From Hahella chejuensis KCTC 2396 (GTDB taxonomy: Bacteria > Pseudomonadota > Gammaproteobacteria > Pseudomonadales > Oleiphilaceae): 64,000 nucleotides of DNA. The position numbers and the translations under genes are program-made. The number at the start of each line of letters is the position of its first letter. Position 1 is the first letter of the stretch. The DNA is taken from NCBI RefSeq assembly GCF_000012985.1, contig NC_007645.1, positions 6,102,001-6,166,000 on the forward strand, in the 5' to 3' direction. This document shows, piece by piece, positions 49,496 to 59,658 of the stretch. The notes under the pieces were generated by a model that was not told the origin of the DNA, made no database searches, and was given only the letters and a program-made list of their open reading frames with translations.

Positions 49496-49524
49496 ACGGC
49501 GGCGAAATCTCGCCGCCGTTTCCT
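49496..49524 (+). terminator. Terminator-like hairpin after purD
   Basis: ACGGCGGCGA and TCGCCGCCGT around the loop AATC, followed by a short pyrimidine run (TTCCTCTC), 14 bases after the purD stop. A strong stem but a weak T-tract. Confidence 0.65.
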
Positions 49525-49700: not shown

Positions 49701-52700
49701 ATGCCGAAGAATACAAGGAACAGCGGACGTCTGCGCCAACCGCAGGCGCACGCCGGGTCCAGACCTGAAAAAGCCCTTCCCAGCGGGCGGCGCGCCGTAA
49801 AAGGTCCTTTTCTCGCAGTTCCTCATGAAGCCCGTTTTCAGTACATCCTCGACGATATTCCCGAATTGATATGCCGCTGGAAGCCGGACGGAGCCATCAC
49901 CTATGTGAATGCGCAATATTGTCGCTACTTCGGATCTTCCAGAAGCGCTTTGATTGGAAAATCGATCTTCACCTTGTCGCCCCCTGAAGAATGCAGCGTG
50001 ATTCATGAACAAATGCGTCGAATTAGTCAGACCTCCCCTGTCAGCCAGCAAGAACGCAGAGTTATTGACGGACGCGGCGCCCAGCGATGGTTGCTATGGA
50101 CGGACCGAGGGATTTTTGACTCACAAGGGCGAGTGCTGGAGTTCCAATCCATCGGTCGCGACATCACCGACAGCCGGGAAACCAATGAACAGATAGGCTC
50201 CATGGCCAGTCTGGCGACCTTGAGCCCCCACCCGATCATGCGCGCAACCAGCAACGGAGCCATTATCTACGTCAATTACGCTGCGGCGGAATTTCTCAAG
50301 TTGTGGGGAACCGCCATCGGCGAAGCGATTCCCTCATCCTGGTCCCCCACCCTGCAAAAGGTGATTAAATCAGGCGACACGGCGACGCTGGAGCTGGAAC
50401 GCAACAGTCGACACTTTCTTCTGACTCTATCCTGCGACCGCTCGTCCTCCTCCCGGGAGAAAGTCGCCAATATCTATATCACGGATATCAGCCAGCAAAA
50501 ACAAAATGAAGTTGCGCTGCGCCAGAGTGAAAACCGACTTGGCGCCCTCGTTTCAGCTGAAGCGGACAGTATTCTGGTGATCGACGACGCCGGCGTCATT
50601 CGCTTCGCCAACCCTGCGGCTGAGCGTATTTTCGGCAAGCCCAAAGAGATGCTGATTGGCCAGGCATTCGGCGTCCCCTGCCTGACAGGCGACTACGCTG
50701 AAGTCGAATTTCCAAGGGGCGGCAAACGCATCGCAGAGATGCGGGCGCAACCATTGCCCTGGAATGACATCCAGGCGCATCTGATCACTCTGCATGACGT
50801 GACCGATCACCGTAAGCGCGAGCACTTGCTGCAACGACGCAACCGCACCCTGGCGGTGCTCACCGCCTGCGACCATCACTTGGTCAGGGAGAATGACGAA
50901 AGGCATTTGATTGAGTCTTTCTGTCGCCAGTTGGTCGGTGTGGGCCGCCACCAGACCGCTTGGTTTGGATGGGTGAATGACGGACGTCTGGATACTTCAG
51001 GCAATATCATATTGGCCGGAGACGAAACGCCCTTTTTATTGGTGAAAGAGCGTCTGCGCCTGGCGTTGGATGAAAATGATCCTGTTACCCGCGCGCTTCG
51101 CGAAGGCCGTTCCGTGACGCAACATAATCTGTCTGGTCTCTACGGGGCGTCTATCAGCGCCGACGCCCCACCCTTGAGCCAGTCCATGATCGTCCTACCC
51201 GTGGGCAAGTCCCCTGAGACACTGGGGGTCATGGTCATTTATTCGGAATATGCGGAAGCCTTCGATCACGAAGAGATCGAGCTGCTTGAGCAACTTGCGG
51301 ACGACCTCTATTACGGCGTCGTTTCACTGCGCACCCGACACGCCAGAGAAAAGGCGGAAGAATCGCTGCGCTTACGCAACCGCGCCGTGGAGTCCACTCC
51401 CAACGGTATTCTGATCCTCAATGCGCGCCGCCCGGACCTGCCGCTGGTGTACGTCAACCCCGCATTCGAACGCATTACGGGATACAGCAGCGATGAAGTG
51501 TTAGGAAAAGGTCCGTTTTTTCTCCAAAGCGACATTGATGAAGACCGTCGCAGAGAGTCCCTGCACTTTCTGATTCGCAACCGGGAGGAAGGCTGCGTGC
51601 TGTTACGTAATCAACGTAAAGACGGCTCACCCTTCTGGAATGAGCTGCATATCGCTCCAGTCTACGATGATCGCCGCATGCTTACCCATTTTGTCGCCGT
51701 GATCAACGACGTTACGGAGAGCCGACATTATCAGGAGCAACTGGAGTATCAAGCCACCCATGACGATCTGACCGGACTGCCCAATCGCAACATGATGCGC
51801 GACCGCCTGGGCCAGGAGCTATGGCGCGCCGCCCGCAACAAACACAAAGTGGCGATTGTGTTCCTGGATATCGACCAATTCAAATTGATCAACGATAGTC
51901 TCGGACATAACGCCGGCGACGCCATGTTGAAGGTCATCGCCAAGCGTCTCACCGGTATGGCCCGCGCCAGCGACACCGTGGTGCGCTATGGCGGCGACGA
52001 GTTCGTGATTATCCTTCCGGATATCTCGCCGCCGGAGAAAGTCGCCAGTTTCATTTCCCGCCTTATGGAAGTGATCGCGCAATCCATTCAACTGGATCAT
52101 CGCGATATTCATGTTTCCGCCAGCATCGGGGTCAGCATCTATCCTCAGGACGGCGACCACCCCGAAGTTCTGATTAAGAACGCGGATATCGCCATGTATC
52201 TGGCCAAAGAGGAAGGACGCAACCGCTTCCACTTCTTTACTGAAGATCTCAACAAAACCGCCATGGAGCGTCTGGATCTGGAAGTGCGCCTGCGCGCCGC
52301 CTTGGATAAACAGCAGTTTCACCTGGAGTATCAACCGCAAGTGGATTTGCGCAGCGGCGTTATCACCGGCGTCGAAGCGCTGTTGCGCTGGCGTGAGCCG
52401 GAACTGGGAGATATCCCCCCCGGCAAGTTCATCCCCATTGCGGAGGAAACCGGCCTGATCGGCGCCATTGGCGAGTGGGTGCTGCACGCCGCCTGCGTTC
52501 AGGCGAAAGCCTGGTCTGATTTGGTTGCGCACCCGTTGACCATGTCCATCAACCTGTCGGCGAAGCAACTGACTATGGCGCGCTTCGACAGCGCCCTGCA
52601 CAGCATTCTCACCGACACCGCCGTGGACTGCCGATATATTGAGATCGAGTTGACGGAAAGCGCCATCATGCGCAACGTGAACGAAATGCGCGAGCGTTTG

Positions 52701-53492
52701 AACATCTTAAAGGAACAGGGGCTCAAGCTGGCGGTGGACGACTTCGGCGTCGGCTACTCCAGCTTCAGCCATCTGCGCAGTTTCTCCTTTGATCGGCTCA
52801 AATTGGATATCACTTTCGTGCGCGACATCACCACCGACCCGAATACCGCCTCCATCGCCCGCACCGTCATGTCCATGGCCAGAAGCATGCACATGCAAGT
52901 GGTCGCCGAAGGCATCGAAACGGAAGCTCAACTGCGCTATCTGCAACGGCTGGGGTGTGACGTCGGCCAGGGCTTTTTCCTGGGGCGGCCGGCGTGTGCG
53001 CAGAGTATCGAAGCCTTGCTGGCCAGCCCCCGCATTCGCTCTGTGCGTCCTCCCCCCTCCACCGCCGCCCGCAACCTGCTGGTGCTGGATGACGAAATGA
53101 ATGTGGGCAGCGCCATCAAGCGATTGCTGCGTCATCAGTTCAATGTGTTCCACGCCACCACGTCGCGTCAGGCGTTTGACATCATGGCGCGCACTCCCAT
53201 TCAGGTTGTTATCTCCGATCAGCGCATGCCTGACATGTCGGGAACGGAGTTCCTGAATCGGGTGAAAGAGCTGCACCCCAACGCAATCCGCCTGATCCTC
53301 ACCGGCTATGTGGATATGGAGACCATCACCGAAGCAGTGAACAAAGGCTGGATATTCAAGTTTCTGACCAAGCCCTGGCAGGATGACAAGCTACTGCAAG
53401 TTGTGACGGAAGCCTTTGAGCAATACGAAAAAGAACATCAGACACGGCTGTTGGATACAGCCAGCGGAGTCGGCGATGCAGCCCGGGCCTGA
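49701..53492 (+). CDS. Multi-sensor PAS/GAF - GGDEF - EAL - receiver protein
   Basis: 1263 residues, no membrane segment. In order: PAS (about 45-160), PAS (165-270), PAS (275-375), GAF (390-550), PAS/PAC (555-680), GGDEF (690-850), EAL (865-1110) and a C-terminal receiver (1125-1245). GGDEF is intact (GGDEF at 764-768) with an I-site RASD five residues before it. EAL is intact (EALLRW from 892, DDFGVGYSS). The receiver has phospho-Asp1173 in ISDQRMPDMSG and the FLTKPW lysine. Both synthesis and breakdown of c-di-GMP are possible. A receiver at the C-terminus is uncommon. The first 40 residues are basic and unlike a domain; an overlapping ATG at 49697 in another frame is discussed in the findings. 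Overlaps the KaiB-like gene by 17 bases. Confidence 0.9.
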   Translation: MPKNTRNSGRLRQPQAHAGSRPEKALPSGRRAVKGPFLAVPHEARFQYILDDIPELICRWKPDGAITYVNAQYCRYFGSSRSALIGKSIFTLSPPEECSVIHEQMRRISQTSPVSQQERRVIDGRGAQRWLLWTDRGIFDSQGRVLEFQSIGRDITDSRETNEQIGSMASLATLSPHPIMRATSNGAIIYVNYAAAEFLKLWGTAIGEAIPSSWSPTLQKVIKSGDTATLELERNSRHFLLTLSCDRSSSSREKVANIYITDISQQKQNEVALRQSENRLGALVSAEADSILVIDDAGVIRFANPAAERIFGKPKEMLIGQAFGVPCLTGDYAEVEFPRGGKRIAEMRAQPLPWNDIQAHLITLHDVTDHRKREHLLQRRNRTLAVLTACDHHLVRENDERHLIESFCRQLVGVGRHQTAWFGWVNDGRLDTSGNIILAGDETPFLLVKERLRLALDENDPVTRALREGRSVTQHNLSGLYGASISADAPPLSQSMIVLPVGKSPETLGVMVIYSEYAEAFDHEEIELLEQLADDLYYGVVSLRTRHAREKAEESLRLRNRAVESTPNGILILNARRPDLPLVYVNPAFERITGYSSDEVLGKGPFFLQSDIDEDRRRESLHFLIRNREEGCVLLRNQRKDGSPFWNELHIAPVYDDRRMLTHFVAVINDVTESRHYQEQLEYQATHDDLTGLPNRNMMRDRLGQELWRAARNKHKVAIVFLDIDQFKLINDSLGHNAGDAMLKVIAKRLTGMARASDTVVRYGGDEFVIILPDISPPEKVASFISRLMEVIAQSIQLDHRDIHVSASIGVSIYPQDGDHPEVLIKNADIAMYLAKEEGRNRFHFFTEDLNKTAMERLDLEVRLRAALDKQQFHLEYQPQVDLRSGVITGVEALLRWREPELGDIPPGKFIPIAEETGLIGAIGEWVLHAACVQAKAWSDLVAHPLTMSINLSAKQLTMARFDSALHSILTDTAVDCRYIEIELTESAIMRNVNEMRERLNILKEQGLKLAVDDFGVGYSSFSHLRSFSFDRLKLDITFVRDITTDPNTASIARTVMSMARSMHMQVVAEGIETEAQLRYLQRLGCDVGQGFFLGRPACAQSIEALLASPRIRSVRPPPSTAARNLLVLDDEMNVGSAIKRLLRHQFNVFHATTSRQAFDIMARTPIQVVISDQRMPDMSGTEFLNRVKELHPNAIRLILTGYVDMETITEAVNKGWIFKFLTKPWQDDKLLQVVTEAFEQYEKEHQTRLLDTASGVGDAARA

Positions 53493-53757
53493 GCCATTGC
53501 CGGTTGAGCTGACGCTGTATGTGCAATCCGCGTCAAAAGTGTCGATGAACGCGATCCGCGCAGCCCGTCATCTTTGCGAAAGTGTACTGGCGGGCCGCTG
53601 TACTCTCAGCATTATCGACCTGGATCAGAGCCCCCAGACCGCCGAACGTGACGCTGTGCTGGCGACGCCGACGCTGGCCCGGGGAAGCCGGCGCATTATT
53701 GGCGATCTGTCCGACAGCGCCAGGGTGCTGGAGCTGCTGGACCTGACTTCGCTCTGA
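53476..53757 (+). CDS. KaiB-like protein
   Basis: A 93-residue single-domain protein matching the KaiB thioredoxin-like family: VELTLYVQSASKVSMNAIRAA (first strand and helix), TLSIIDLDQSPQTAERD (the VIDVxxxPxxAEx-type element), the cis-proline region LATPTLA (62-68), and RRIIGDLSDSARVLELLDL at the end. In cyanobacteria KaiB binds KaiC and the SasA kinase to run the clock. Here kaiC and kaiA are not visible. The ATG at 53476 has GGAG eight bases upstream and lies inside the 3' end of the c-di-GMP enzyme gene, so the two are co-translated. Functional partnership with that receiver/EAL protein is inference. Confidence 0.85.
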   Translation: MQPGPEPLPVELTLYVQSASKVSMNAIRAARHLCESVLAGRCTLSIIDLDQSPQTAERDAVLATPTLARGSRRIIGDLSDSARVLELLDLTSL

Positions 53758-56338: not shown

Positions 56339-57595
56339 TTAAATATCTTCATCCGTTGTGAGGCGGTTACGACCGTTGTCCTTGGACTCGTACAACAGCA
56401 CGTCCGCCCGCCGGATCAGATTATCCAGGGAGTCCCCCAGAACATCCGTGGCGCCGATGCTGACCGTCAGGCGCAGATGATCTGAAAGAAAGGGAATAGC
56501 GGTCTGTTCCACTTTGTGTCGGAACGATTCCAGCATTGGCGAGATTTTCTCGATACTCACGCCAGGAAATAACACGCAGAATTCCTCGCCGCCGAATCGG
56601 GCCGCCAGATAATCCCCAAAGGTTTCCCCTATCATCTTGGCGAAAGCGCAGATAGCGCGGTCCCCCGCCTCGTGTCCATAGGTGTCGTTGATGCGTTTGA
56701 AGTGGTCCACATCAATCATCGCCGCCGTCAAAGGCTCACCATTCTCCTTGGCGACCCGATACAGCTCCTTGGCCGCGCTGAATAAGTAGCGCCGGTTGTA
56801 CATGCCGGTCAGATAATCACGGTTAGCCGCATCATTCAGAGCCTGAATGTTCTCCATGGCTTCGATGTTATGCATGATGCGACAGTGAAATTCCTCATGA
56901 AAAAACGGCTTCATCAAAAAGTCATTGGCGCCGTTCTTGATGAATTTGGCGGACAGCGTGGCGCTGCCATACCCGGACAGACCAATAATGACCAAGTCCT
57001 TCTTGTCATATTCCCTGCGCAACGCCCGAGTCAACTCGAAGCCATCCATTTCCGGCATGTTGTAATCGGAAATCAGCATTTTGATCTCCGGGTCCGCCTT
57101 GATCATTTCCAACGCTTCACGCCCATGTTTAGCCAGCTGCACCTGATAAAGATGCGTGACCAGCAGTTGCCGCACGTACTGCCGCGAGGTGTCGGAATCG
57201 TCCGCCACCACCACCTTGATGTTGCGATTGCGCAGTAGGCGACGAATCAGACGCGTGACGTATTCATAGGAATAACGGCTTTCTTTAACGACATAATCAA
57301 CGATAGGTTTTTGCAGGATAGTCTCGCGCTTACCTTCGTCGTAGGTGGCGGTGAGCACGATACAGGGCAGCTTTTTCGACAGCACGTAATCCAGCACTTC
57401 GCCATTGGGCGCGTCCGGCAGATGCAGGTCCACCACCGTTACGAAATAGCCGTCGGGATCTTTTTCCAGAAACTCCCGAGTCTCCTGCAGCGTACCTGCG
57501 CTGTCACAGGGCAGGCCCAGCTCGGTCTTGATCAGGTGGCGCAACACTTTCGTGATCATCACACTGTCTTCAATCAGAAGAATTCGTTCATTCAT
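56339..57595 (-). CDS. Two-receiver response regulator diguanylate cyclase (PleD-like)
   Basis: 418 residues: receiver 1 (about 4-120, phospho-Asp56 in VVDLHLPD, Lys104), receiver 2 (about 127-245, Asp177 in ISDYNMPEMDG, Lys in FLMKPF), GGDEF (about 255-415) with GGEEF at 335-339. The I-site RxxD is missing at the expected spot, so product inhibition at that site is not expected. Active synthesis of c-di-GMP is predicted. The two-receiver plan resembles PleD. Stands alone, with no kinase adjacent. Confidence 0.9.
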   Translation of the reverse strand: MNERILLIEDSVMITKVLRHLIKTELGLPCDSAGTLQETREFLEKDPDGYFVTVVDLHLPDAPNGEVLDYVLSKKLPCIVLTATYDEGKRETILQKPIVDYVVKESRYSYEYVTRLIRRLLRNRNIKVVVADDSDTSRQYVRQLLVTHLYQVQLAKHGREALEMIKADPEIKMLISDYNMPEMDGFELTRALRREYDKKDLVIIGLSGYGSATLSAKFIKNGANDFLMKPFFHEEFHCRIMHNIEAMENIQALNDAANRDYLTGMYNRRYLFSAAKELYRVAKENGEPLTAAMIDVDHFKRINDTYGHEAGDRAICAFAKMIGETFGDYLAARFGGEEFCVLFPGVSIEKISPMLESFRHKVEQTAIPFLSDHLRLTVSIGATDVLGDSLDNLIRRADVLLYESKDNGRNRLTTDEDI

Positions 57596-57888: not shown

Positions 57889-59658
57889 ATGCGAACCAAT
57901 ACAAAAATCATCTGTCTGGCTACCGCCATAATCGGTCTACAAGGATGCGCCGGTCTTTCCGGCCCTGCGACTTCAGGCTCCCACTCGCTGGCCTTTTCCG
58001 CCCCCGCAGAAGGAGAGACCAAAGCCGCCGCCATCCCTGTCATCACCCTTTTCTTTAACGAAGCGCTGGACCCCGCCAGCGTCGACGCCAGCGCTATCAA
58101 GTTAAACCTTGATCCCGCACGAAATATTGATATCGCCGAACGGGAGTATGACGCCCAGGCCAACGTGCTGACATTGCGTCTCTCCACGCCCATGCCACTG
58201 GCTACGCGCGTCGCGCTAAACGTGAGCGGCCTGAAAAATGAAAAAGGACAATCCGTCCGCGCCATCGATCTAACCTTCACCACCGACGACGCCTACCGCT
58301 ATCGCGGCATTGAGTTTCAGGATGGCCGCATCAGCGGCTATTTCGAGGAGTGGCGAGAGTCTCGCGAAGGCGAGGAGGTTAACTACAACGTTAACTATGT
58401 CAACTCAGGTTCGGATCAGGTTTGGTTCACCGGCGATGATGAGATCAGTCGCTATGTTCGCACCCGTTCGACAGCGGAAGAAACCCTGGAGGCGATCTTT
58501 ATCGCGCCTGGCGACGACGAGTCCTGGTTCACCGACGACGACATTCCGGAAAGCTACACCCGTCTTCGTTCTTCAGACACGCTGTATCAGTCTGCGCTAT
58601 ACCAGGGCCCGGGTCCCGACGGCGCATGGTTCACCGACGACGACGCGTCTGACAATTGCGCTCTACAGAGCTCCAAAGGCGACGAGGAACAATCCGTCAC
58701 CGTATACAAGCGCAGTCGCCAGGGCGCAGATCATCAGTGCTTCACCGATGACGACGTCATTCTTGAAGTGAATCGCGACGAGCAGAACTCCCAAGGCGAT
58801 AAGGTGCGCACCGCAAGTTGGGTGTACAGTCACCCCGGCGCCGACGGCCTATGGGAGACGGCGGATGATCAGATCAGCGCTTTCAGCGTATCCGACTATG
58901 ACGACGAAAGCAGCGCCGTCTCCAACTACGCCTCCCCCGGCAAGGACGGCGTATGGCTGACGAAGGACGACCGCCTGACCGATTACAGCGTCACCACCAC
59001 CAAAGACGGACTCACCCGCACCGTCTATTACCGCGACCCCGGTTATGACGGACTTTGGCGCACCGCTGACGATATTCCTTTCGGCTACTCAGAAGAGCGC
59101 AGCGACGCAGACGCTCACAATATCTACAGCAAAGAAGTGAATAACCCCGGACCTGACGGCGTTTGGTTCACCCAGGATGATTTGCTGGCCAGTCACGCCA
59201 AAAGCGAAAATGACGAGAACGGCAATTTCAGCCGCTGGATCAATTACAGCTCTACGGGCCCCGACAGGGAGCCTTTCACCGATGACGACCTGATTAACGA
59301 GTACTATACCTCCACCACCAGCGCCGACCGGGAAAGCATCGAAGAAGCCGGCTTCCGTGCGCCGGGAGCGGATGGTGTCTGGTTTACCGAAGACGATACG
59401 CCAACCACTTTGTCCAGACGTTGGGAGCGGCAGGATGAGGAAACTCAGCGTAGCCTGAGCGCGACCTACAATACACAAACCGCCGCCACCGTGGGGGAAA
59501 TTAACGACGACGCCATTACTTACTACAGCGTCAGCGAATCGCAGGCGGGGTACTACATGGACGCCAGCTACCAGTCCCCTGGCGCGGACGGACAGTGGCT
59601 CACCGCAGATGATACGCCGGCGACCATGACGCTGAACTACGCCGATCCACGCGAGTAA
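57889..59658 (+). CDS. Lipoprotein with Ig-like domain and about twelve Asp-rich GxDGxWxTxDD repeats
   Basis: Lipobox LQGC gives acylated Cys20. Residues 40-134 look like a bacterial Ig-like (Big_5/SbsA-type) domain: IPVITLFFNEALDPASVDAS ... LRLSTPMPLATRVALNVSGL. From about 140 on, units of 34-38 residues repeat, each with a core like GPDGVWFTQDD, at residues 174, 208, 242, 279, 317, 351, 385, 421, 457, 493 and 565. A unit near 530 has lost the core (GEINDDAITYYS), so the period is kept. The clustered Asp residues suggest calcium-binding turns on a beta scaffold. Cell-surface or periplasmic role inferred; no known function. AGGA precedes the ATG. Confidence 0.8.
   Translation: MRTNTKIICLATAIIGLQGCAGLSGPATSGSHSLAFSAPAEGETKAAAIPVITLFFNEALDPASVDASAIKLNLDPARNIDIAEREYDAQANVLTLRLSTPMPLATRVALNVSGLKNEKGQSVRAIDLTFTTDDAYRYRGIEFQDGRISGYFEEWRESREGEEVNYNVNYVNSGSDQVWFTGDDEISRYVRTRSTAEETLEAIFIAPGDDESWFTDDDIPESYTRLRSSDTLYQSALYQGPGPDGAWFTDDDASDNCALQSSKGDEEQSVTVYKRSRQGADHQCFTDDDVILEVNRDEQNSQGDKVRTASWVYSHPGADGLWETADDQISAFSVSDYDDESSAVSNYASPGKDGVWLTKDDRLTDYSVTTTKDGLTRTVYYRDPGYDGLWRTADDIPFGYSEERSDADAHNIYSKEVNNPGPDGVWFTQDDLLASHAKSENDENGNFSRWINYSSTGPDREPFTDDDLINEYYTSTTSADRESIEEAGFRAPGADGVWFTEDDTPTTLSRRWERQDEETQRSLSATYNTQTAATVGEINDDAITYYSVSESQAGYYMDASYQSPGADGQWLTADDTPATMTLNYADPRE

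Follow-up and report, generated by a model that had tools for sequence, protein, structure and literature searches.

Outside the cyanobacteria, an association of kaiC-kaiB with genes for histidine kinases or GGDEF/EAL proteins was already published in 2011 (PMC3164672), and an operon comprising kaiC, kaiB, a histidine kinase gene and a receiver gene is reported from Bradyrhizobium (PMC3899966). Cyanobacterial KaiB, once fold-switched, is reported to bind the pseudo-receiver of CikA through its beta2 strand and to contact KaiC mainly by its fold-switched C-terminal half (PMC6378743, PMC12632262). Here, a pair of overlapping genes from Hahella chejuensis KCTC 2396 is compared with these systems. 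One gene encodes a KaiB-family protein of 93 residues and the other a 1263-residue multidomain enzyme of cyclic di-GMP (c-di-GMP) turnover, and both lie in a stretch of 64,000 nucleotides (RefSeq GCF_000012985.1, contig NC_007645.1, positions 6,102,001 to 6,166,000; referred to as the window). From family membership, gene overlap, shared presence and absence, purifying selection, the KaiC that was not found and a short hairpin we propose, with a probability of roughly 0.45, that this KaiB acts as a KaiC-independent, dedicated adaptor or regulatory subunit of the enzyme, the two genes together forming a signalling unit. The association of KaiB with GGDEF/EAL proteins is itself known; what is new is the absence of a detectable KaiC, together with a shortened hairpin in KaiB.

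An earlier reading of the window, made from its letters alone (the sequence-only reading), had assigned the small protein to the KaiB family, and profile searches support that assignment. Residues 14-89 matched the Pfam KaiB family (PF07689) at 50 bits, the cut-off being 27 (E 2.4e-13), and the best 11 matches in a PDB sequence search were all KaiB-family chains (top E 3.6e-12); PDB 5jyv, which we take to be the KaiB-CikA pseudo-receiver complex, was among the matches. The LATPTLA and RRIIGDLSDSARVLELL stretches are retained in the alignment. The NCBIfam cut-offs for clock KaiB were not reached (PRK09301, 57.4 of 110 bits; TIGR02654, 54.4 of 145.3 bits), and the protein is therefore assigned to the KaiB family but not to the clock-KaiB equivalogs. 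PRK09303, presumably the SasA model, gave 14 bits, and the protein stands alone, without the fused histidine kinase of a SasA. Its only cysteines, Cys34 and Cys42, do not form a CxxC motif, so a thioredoxin-type redox role, which had also been considered, finds no support.

Tight coupling of the two genes, the other structural claim of that reading, was confirmed. kaiB begins before the enzyme gene has ended, the two overlapping by 17 nucleotides, stop codon counted, and a GGAG sequence stands 6 nucleotides upstream of its ATG in all four genomes of the genus that carry the pair. A longer reading of 113 residues from a TTG at position 53416 appears in the mechanical list of open reading frames (ORFs); the ATG at 53476 was preferred because of the GGAG. 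The enzyme is placed among GGDEF-EAL proteins both by its domains (Pfam scores of 243 bits for EAL, 179 for GGDEF and 66 for Response_reg, with PAS and GAF matches as well) and by catalytic motifs in the GGDEF and EAL domains. Given both sets of motifs, it is proposed to be a regulated phosphodiesterase or a bifunctional enzyme. The best sequence match of its C-terminal receiver among solved structures was the receiver of an HD-phosphohydrolase protein (2rjn).

The remark that no KaiC was in view, made for the window, holds for the whole genome by profile searches. The genome is a single contig of 7,215,267 bases, throughout which a search with the KaiC model TIGR02655 found no KaiC (best match 14.2 bits). 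When 12 genomes were run with the same model, the best scores were 14.0-17.9 bits in the seven genomes of the genus and 188-273 bits in all five positive controls, the order-sample genomes with a KaiB over the cut-off. Four ORFs of the window genome, one of them only with its frame neighbours counted, pass the cut-off of the KaiC superfamily (PF06745); they were rejected as KaiC, being RadA, RecA, DnaB and a DnaB-like protein of 236 residues. The last of these (L005:1381-2091, G000:C1 about 3103000; L and G numbers designate loci and genomes) is a single-domain DnaB/KaiC-superfamily protein that matches PRK05973 with 348 bits. The KaiB profile exceeded its cut-off at one place in the window genome, the locus described here, and the second place scored 13.8 bits. 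There is thus no second over-cut-off KaiB-type domain that could belong to a SasA-type partner, in keeping with the sequence-only reading, which had also seen no KaiA (no search aimed at KaiA was made).

Among 27 other class-sample genomes with a KaiB over the cut-off, 25 have a KaiC-model match of at least 77 bits. The two without are G494 and G745. The former's 'KaiB' (L090) was rejected as a KaiB and moved to the controls, since by eye it reads as a membrane-anchored thioredoxin-like protein. In G745, KaiB is divided between two frames that lie immediately ahead of a PAS-GGDEF gene (L097:5522-6755), and the best KaiC-model match is 21 bits. A kaiB with no kaiC in the stretch shown was also seen at L114:5531-5848, in a genome (G589) that has KaiC elsewhere, and at L135:4980-5273 on a Hymenobacter plasmid. 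The claim in the literature that KaiB is confined to organisms with full-length KaiC comes from a survey that retained only KaiC-bearing organisms (PMC5520375) and therefore does not count against cases of KaiB without KaiC.

A survey for the same gene pair, which the sequence-only reading had suggested, was run within the genus and found the two genes present or absent together. Four of the seven genomes, the window genome included, have KaiB; these four also have the enzyme (E 1e-200), and the remaining three lack both. Among named organisms, Hahella sp. HN01 is the closest at this locus, and locus L006 was not counted separately from G757. In two of the genomes that do not carry the pair (G754, G755) the site is empty, with purD and a lipoprotein gene facing each other across 60-71 bases, and in the third (G758) the neighbourhood at the site differs. 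The frame of kaiB is intact in the four species, and its ratio of nonsynonymous to synonymous substitution rates (dN/dS), calculated with the first six codons left out, is 0.068-0.141 in all six species pairs. KaiB of the window type is under purifying selection. For the enzyme, dN/dS is 0.046-0.053 in three pairs, the G756 enzyme, which is 20 residues shorter, being left out.

The feature that sets the genus proteins apart lies between the cis-proline position and a conserved glycine. In an alignment of 52 KaiB domains this stretch comprises 10 residues in all four genus proteins, and 14 (42 domains) or 15 (6 domains) in the 48 others. The second and third of the fold-switch prolines fall within the four missing residues, and the first is kept; the matching to P58, P65 and P67 of Rhodobacter sphaeroides KaiB is our own, made by spacing and alignment. 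Isomerisation of these three prolines is reported to be rate-limiting for fold switching, and they are conserved in 474 of 487 variants (PMC11185700); in our alignment all three are kept in 36 of the 52 domains. Within this set, which excludes KaiB ORFs short of E 1e-8, among them copies at L097, L101 and L106 that are broken or split, the shorter length is, as judged from the alignment, unique to the genus, and the loss of prolines is not. An AlphaFold2 model of the window KaiB has the thioredoxin-like topology (mean predicted local distance difference test score 86.7), with hairpin strands at residues 66-69 and 72-75, and its best fold matches in the PDB are KaiBs of thioredoxin-like fold.

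KaiB next to c-di-GMP enzymes was then counted in 35 KaiB loci from 31 other genomes (26 from the class sample and 5 from the order sample). Several loci are cut by contig ends, and L097, L101 and L106 were counted as misses. At 15 of the 35 loci, and in 13 of the 31 genomes, an EAL gene lay on the same strand no more than 150 nucleotides from kaiB or kaiC, or formed a fusion with KaiB. When the whole fetched stretch was considered, EAL genes occurred at 17 of the 35 loci and at none of 10 control loci, a small set made up of L090, the sub-cut-off loci L025, L027, L028 and L107-L109, and the genus loci without the pair (L084-L086); the sub-cut-off class matches G659 and G686 stood outside it. 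Pfam confirmed the EAL domain in all ten proteins submitted (eight from adjacent-EAL loci, plus those of L020 and L009). The link between KaiB and c-di-GMP enzymes that the sequence-only reading had drawn is not peculiar to the window locus, being seen in these 13 genomes and described in PMC3164672. Among the titles and abstract openings returned by searches of the PMC open-licence literature, neither a KaiB without KaiC beside a c-di-GMP enzyme nor a KaiB-GGDEF-EAL fusion was described.

Such a fusion was observed in G171, where a protein of 887 residues (L023:5931-8594) has the order KaiB-GAF-GGDEF-EAL, a SasA-like layout with c-di-GMP output; the same genome has a kaiC-kaiB pair beside a PAS-GAF-GGDEF-EAL gene. 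At four loci kaiC is followed by two kaiB genes in tandem (L008:5941-8348, L120:5463-7708, L136:4920-7277 and L009:4925-8215), the second of which adjoins a histidine kinase gene (two with a C-terminal receiver) or a GGDEF-EAL gene. Such second KaiBs may be output adaptors. By Pfam, five histidine kinases adjoin kaiB, of which those at L136, L120 and L116 end in a receiver and those at L008 and L121 do not. Among 72,556 records of a plasmid collection, one, from Burkholderia stagnalis, matched the window enzyme at E 1e-40. Its protein is a GGDEF-EAL protein with two receiver matches, the tblastn match spans the EAL domain and the C-terminal receiver, and the gene stands after one annotated 'response regulator'; no KaiB is among the six annotated features shown.

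The Hahella pair probably derives from the widespread kaiC-kaiB clusters with a GGDEF/EAL or histidine kinase gene, either because KaiC was lost or because a KaiB was captured from such a cluster. In a tree of the 52 KaiB domains, built on 96 columns and with many forks open, the genus KaiBs group (support 98/94) with a KaiB from Acidimicrobiales, the second in a cluster ordered KaiC-KaiB-KaiB-(GGDEF-EAL); there the longest reading of the GGDEF-EAL gene starts 4 nucleotides after this KaiB. The KaiB of G060, which belongs to the same family and has kept KaiC, is not near them. Because of these placements, the tree suggests that the genus acquired its KaiB by capture from a kaiBC cluster, as a 'second KaiB', and that it is not a decayed copy of an ancestral family gene; the suggestion is tentative owing to the long branches of the tree.

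As a subunit of the enzyme, KaiB would stay in the thioredoxin-like, partner-binding fold and would be made in step with the enzyme through translational coupling. It would dock on the enzyme, most likely on the C-terminal receiver, via the beta2 strand with which other KaiBs bind CikA; once docked, it would alter the transmission of PAS/GAF or phosphorylation signals to the catalytic domains. In the window KaiB the hairpin gap falls within the C-terminal half, and strand 42-48 of the model, which matches beta2, is retained; by analogy, this combination would fit a protein that has given up the contact with KaiC and kept that with a receiver. The sequence-only reading had named the receiver as the docking candidate; the KaiB-CikA complex provides a structural precedent for such docking, one that this reading had not given. 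A more specific and more doubtful proposal, drawn from the same analogy, is that a KaiB without KaiC and without the proline switch sits via beta2 on the receiver and sets c-di-GMP turnover according to receiver phosphorylation, its KaiC-binding half having been trimmed and its receiver-binding strand kept, and that KaiB is generally a KaiC-to-c-di-GMP coupling factor in Gammaproteobacteria.

Several points weigh against a KaiC-independent subunit. The contact with CikA is reported to be weak without KaiC, and a KaiB variant that bound without KaiC carried alanine at N29 (PMC6378743); the window KaiB has Arg31 at this position in the PDB alignment. The receiver of the enzyme, unlike a pseudo-receiver, has retained its phosphorylation residues. 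The 13 genomes counted for an adjacent EAL gene all have KaiC, so KaiB may serve KaiC there, and the pair occurs in one genus, so that the shared presence of its genes rests on few independent events. The open forks and long branches of the KaiB tree belong here as well. As for the fold, 12 of the 48 other KaiBs, mostly at KaiC loci, lack one or both of the later prolines yet keep the length. Substitution of P58 or P65 by alanine is reported to have abolished the fold-switched state of R. sphaeroides KaiB (PMC11185700), and loss of prolines could therefore favour the ground fold instead. The AlphaFold2 model was rejected as proof of a locked fold: a canonical KaiB beside kaiC (L008), with its prolines kept, gave the identical topology from the same eight sequences, and the model thus cannot tell a locked from a switching KaiB. 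Default AlphaFold2 is reported to favour the thioredoxin-like state even for a ground-state KaiB (PMC10808063).

Some of the same evidence bears on what else this KaiB could be doing. It is possible, though we think it rather doubtful, that KaiB is a free-standing thioredoxin-like adaptor for another partner, such as a histidine kinase or receiver whose gene lies elsewhere, and is co-expressed with the enzyme in the same pathway without binding it. kaiB adjoins histidine kinases in other genomes (the five noted above, three of them ending in a receiver), so the partners of KaiB vary, and the KaiB of Legionella pneumophila is reported to have a role in stress and not in a clock (PMC10808063); against this, the KaiB and enzyme genes are present or absent together, and their overlap, together with the conserved GGAG, points to production of the two proteins in matched amounts. 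Constraint on the gene makes it improbable that KaiB is a relic of a kaiBC-c-di-GMP cluster that has lost KaiC and no longer works: dN/dS is 0.07-0.14 in six of six pairs, frame and GGAG are intact in four species, and LATPTLA and RRIIGDLSDSARVLELL are kept. The KaiC that was not found and the short hairpin would agree with a relic, and G745, with its split KaiB by a PAS-GGDEF gene and a KaiC-model match of 21 bits, may show such a state.

The sequence-only reading had suggested a link of c-di-GMP turnover to a fold-switching module. With fold switching as the working principle, the pair would be a timer or slow switch that gates c-di-GMP turnover. Membership of the KaiB family and the analogy with CikA and SasA speak for this idea, but it was not upheld: with the hairpin shortened and two of the three prolines behind slow switching missing, a fold-switch timer is very unlikely, and no KaiC was found that could drive a cycle. 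Least credible is a partnership with another KaiC-superfamily ATPase of the genome, such as the 236-residue DnaB-like protein or RadA. Four ORFs do exceed the PF06745 cut-off, but they are RadA, RecA, DnaB-like and DnaB proteins, none stands beside kaiB, and the best KaiC-model match of the genome is 14 bits.

The positions of the genes, domains and signals are collected in Table 1. The inverted repeat directly 3' of purD, if it is a terminator, could separate the pair from purHD; the terminator scan did not list it. G+C content is 56.8% in the enzyme gene, 62.8% in kaiB and 57-60% in purH, purD and the transporter gene, and is uninformative on transfer. Nearby, at 56339-57595 of the window, lies a second c-di-GMP gene with one or more receivers and GGDEF, PleD/CbrR-like by NCBIfam at scores below the cut-offs, which is also kept in the genus relatives G756, G757 and G759. 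The gene at 57889-59658 encodes a protein of 589 residues with many GPDGxWFTxDD-like repeats, possibly calcium-binding as read by eye, for which no NCBIfam match was found at 1e-5.

Table 1 Features of the KaiB/c-di-GMP enzyme locus, in positions of the window
Feature	Coordinates	Strand	Basis
GC-rich inverted repeat directly 3' of purD, possible terminator	49497..49518	+	read by eye
Gene for 1263-residue multidomain c-di-GMP enzyme (PAS/GAF/PAS/GGDEF/EAL/receiver)	49701..53492	+	Pfam
N-terminal PAS domain, residues 50-160	49848..50180	+	Pfam PAS_4
GAF domain, residues 398-535	50892..51305	+	GAF_2, 38.4 bits (cut-off 28.6)
PAS domain preceding the catalytic domains, residues 559-673	51375..51719	+	Pfam PAS, PAS_9
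GGDEF domain, residues 685-842, with GGDEF and RxxD motifs	51753..52226	+	Pfam, motif reading
EAL domain, residues 863-1097, motifs EALLR, DDFGVGYS, EGIE	52287..52991	+	Pfam, motif reading
C-terminal receiver (Response_reg), residues 1127-1235, motifs LDDE, SDQRMP, LTGY, TKPW	53079..53405	+	
GGAG, putative kaiB ribosome-binding site within the 3' end of the enzyme gene	53466..53469	+	
KaiB-family gene, 93 residues	53476..53757	+	ATG start; Pfam KaiB; PDB matches
Cis-proline position (P65) to G76, stretch with shortened hairpin	53668..53703	+	alignment, model

If KaiB is indeed a subunit of the enzyme, a clock-family fold would have been recruited to a second-messenger enzyme, and, with KaiB as a general KaiC-to-c-di-GMP coupling factor, the genus would show the coupling half on its own. 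A KaiB retained beside one c-di-GMP enzyme in genomes with no KaiC found sets the contact of KaiB with an output apart from the clock, and in such a pair direct contact between KaiB and a signalling enzyme becomes a simple two-protein question. For testing the proline model of KaiB fold switching, the natural gap of four residues is a variant already to hand.

The non-cyanobacterial kaiC-kaiB clusters (PMC3164672) resemble the window locus in having KaiB tightly beside a PAS/GAF-GGDEF-EAL protein on the same strand; they differ from it in that KaiC was not found in the window genome, the enzyme here carries a C-terminal receiver and the KaiB hairpin is four residues shorter. The cyanobacterial KaiB-CikA pair likewise sets KaiB alongside a signalling protein of several domains, one of them of receiver type. 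CikA, however, is a histidine kinase with a pseudo-receiver in a KaiC clock, whereas the window pair has c-di-GMP output and a receiver with phosphorylation residues, and is known here from its genes. SasA-type sensor domains (PDB 1t4y, 6x61) are thioredoxin-like, KaiB-related and linked to a signalling enzyme; the window KaiB is a separate polypeptide without a kinase and scores 14 bits with PRK09303, and the KaiB-GAF-GGDEF-EAL fusion of L023 is nearer to the SasA layout than the window pair is. The Legionella KaiB Lpp1115 (PDB 4kun) is, like the window protein, non-cyanobacterial and thioredoxin-like, and the two share 36% identity in the fold alignment with a Foldseek template modelling score of 0.81-0.84 to the window model.

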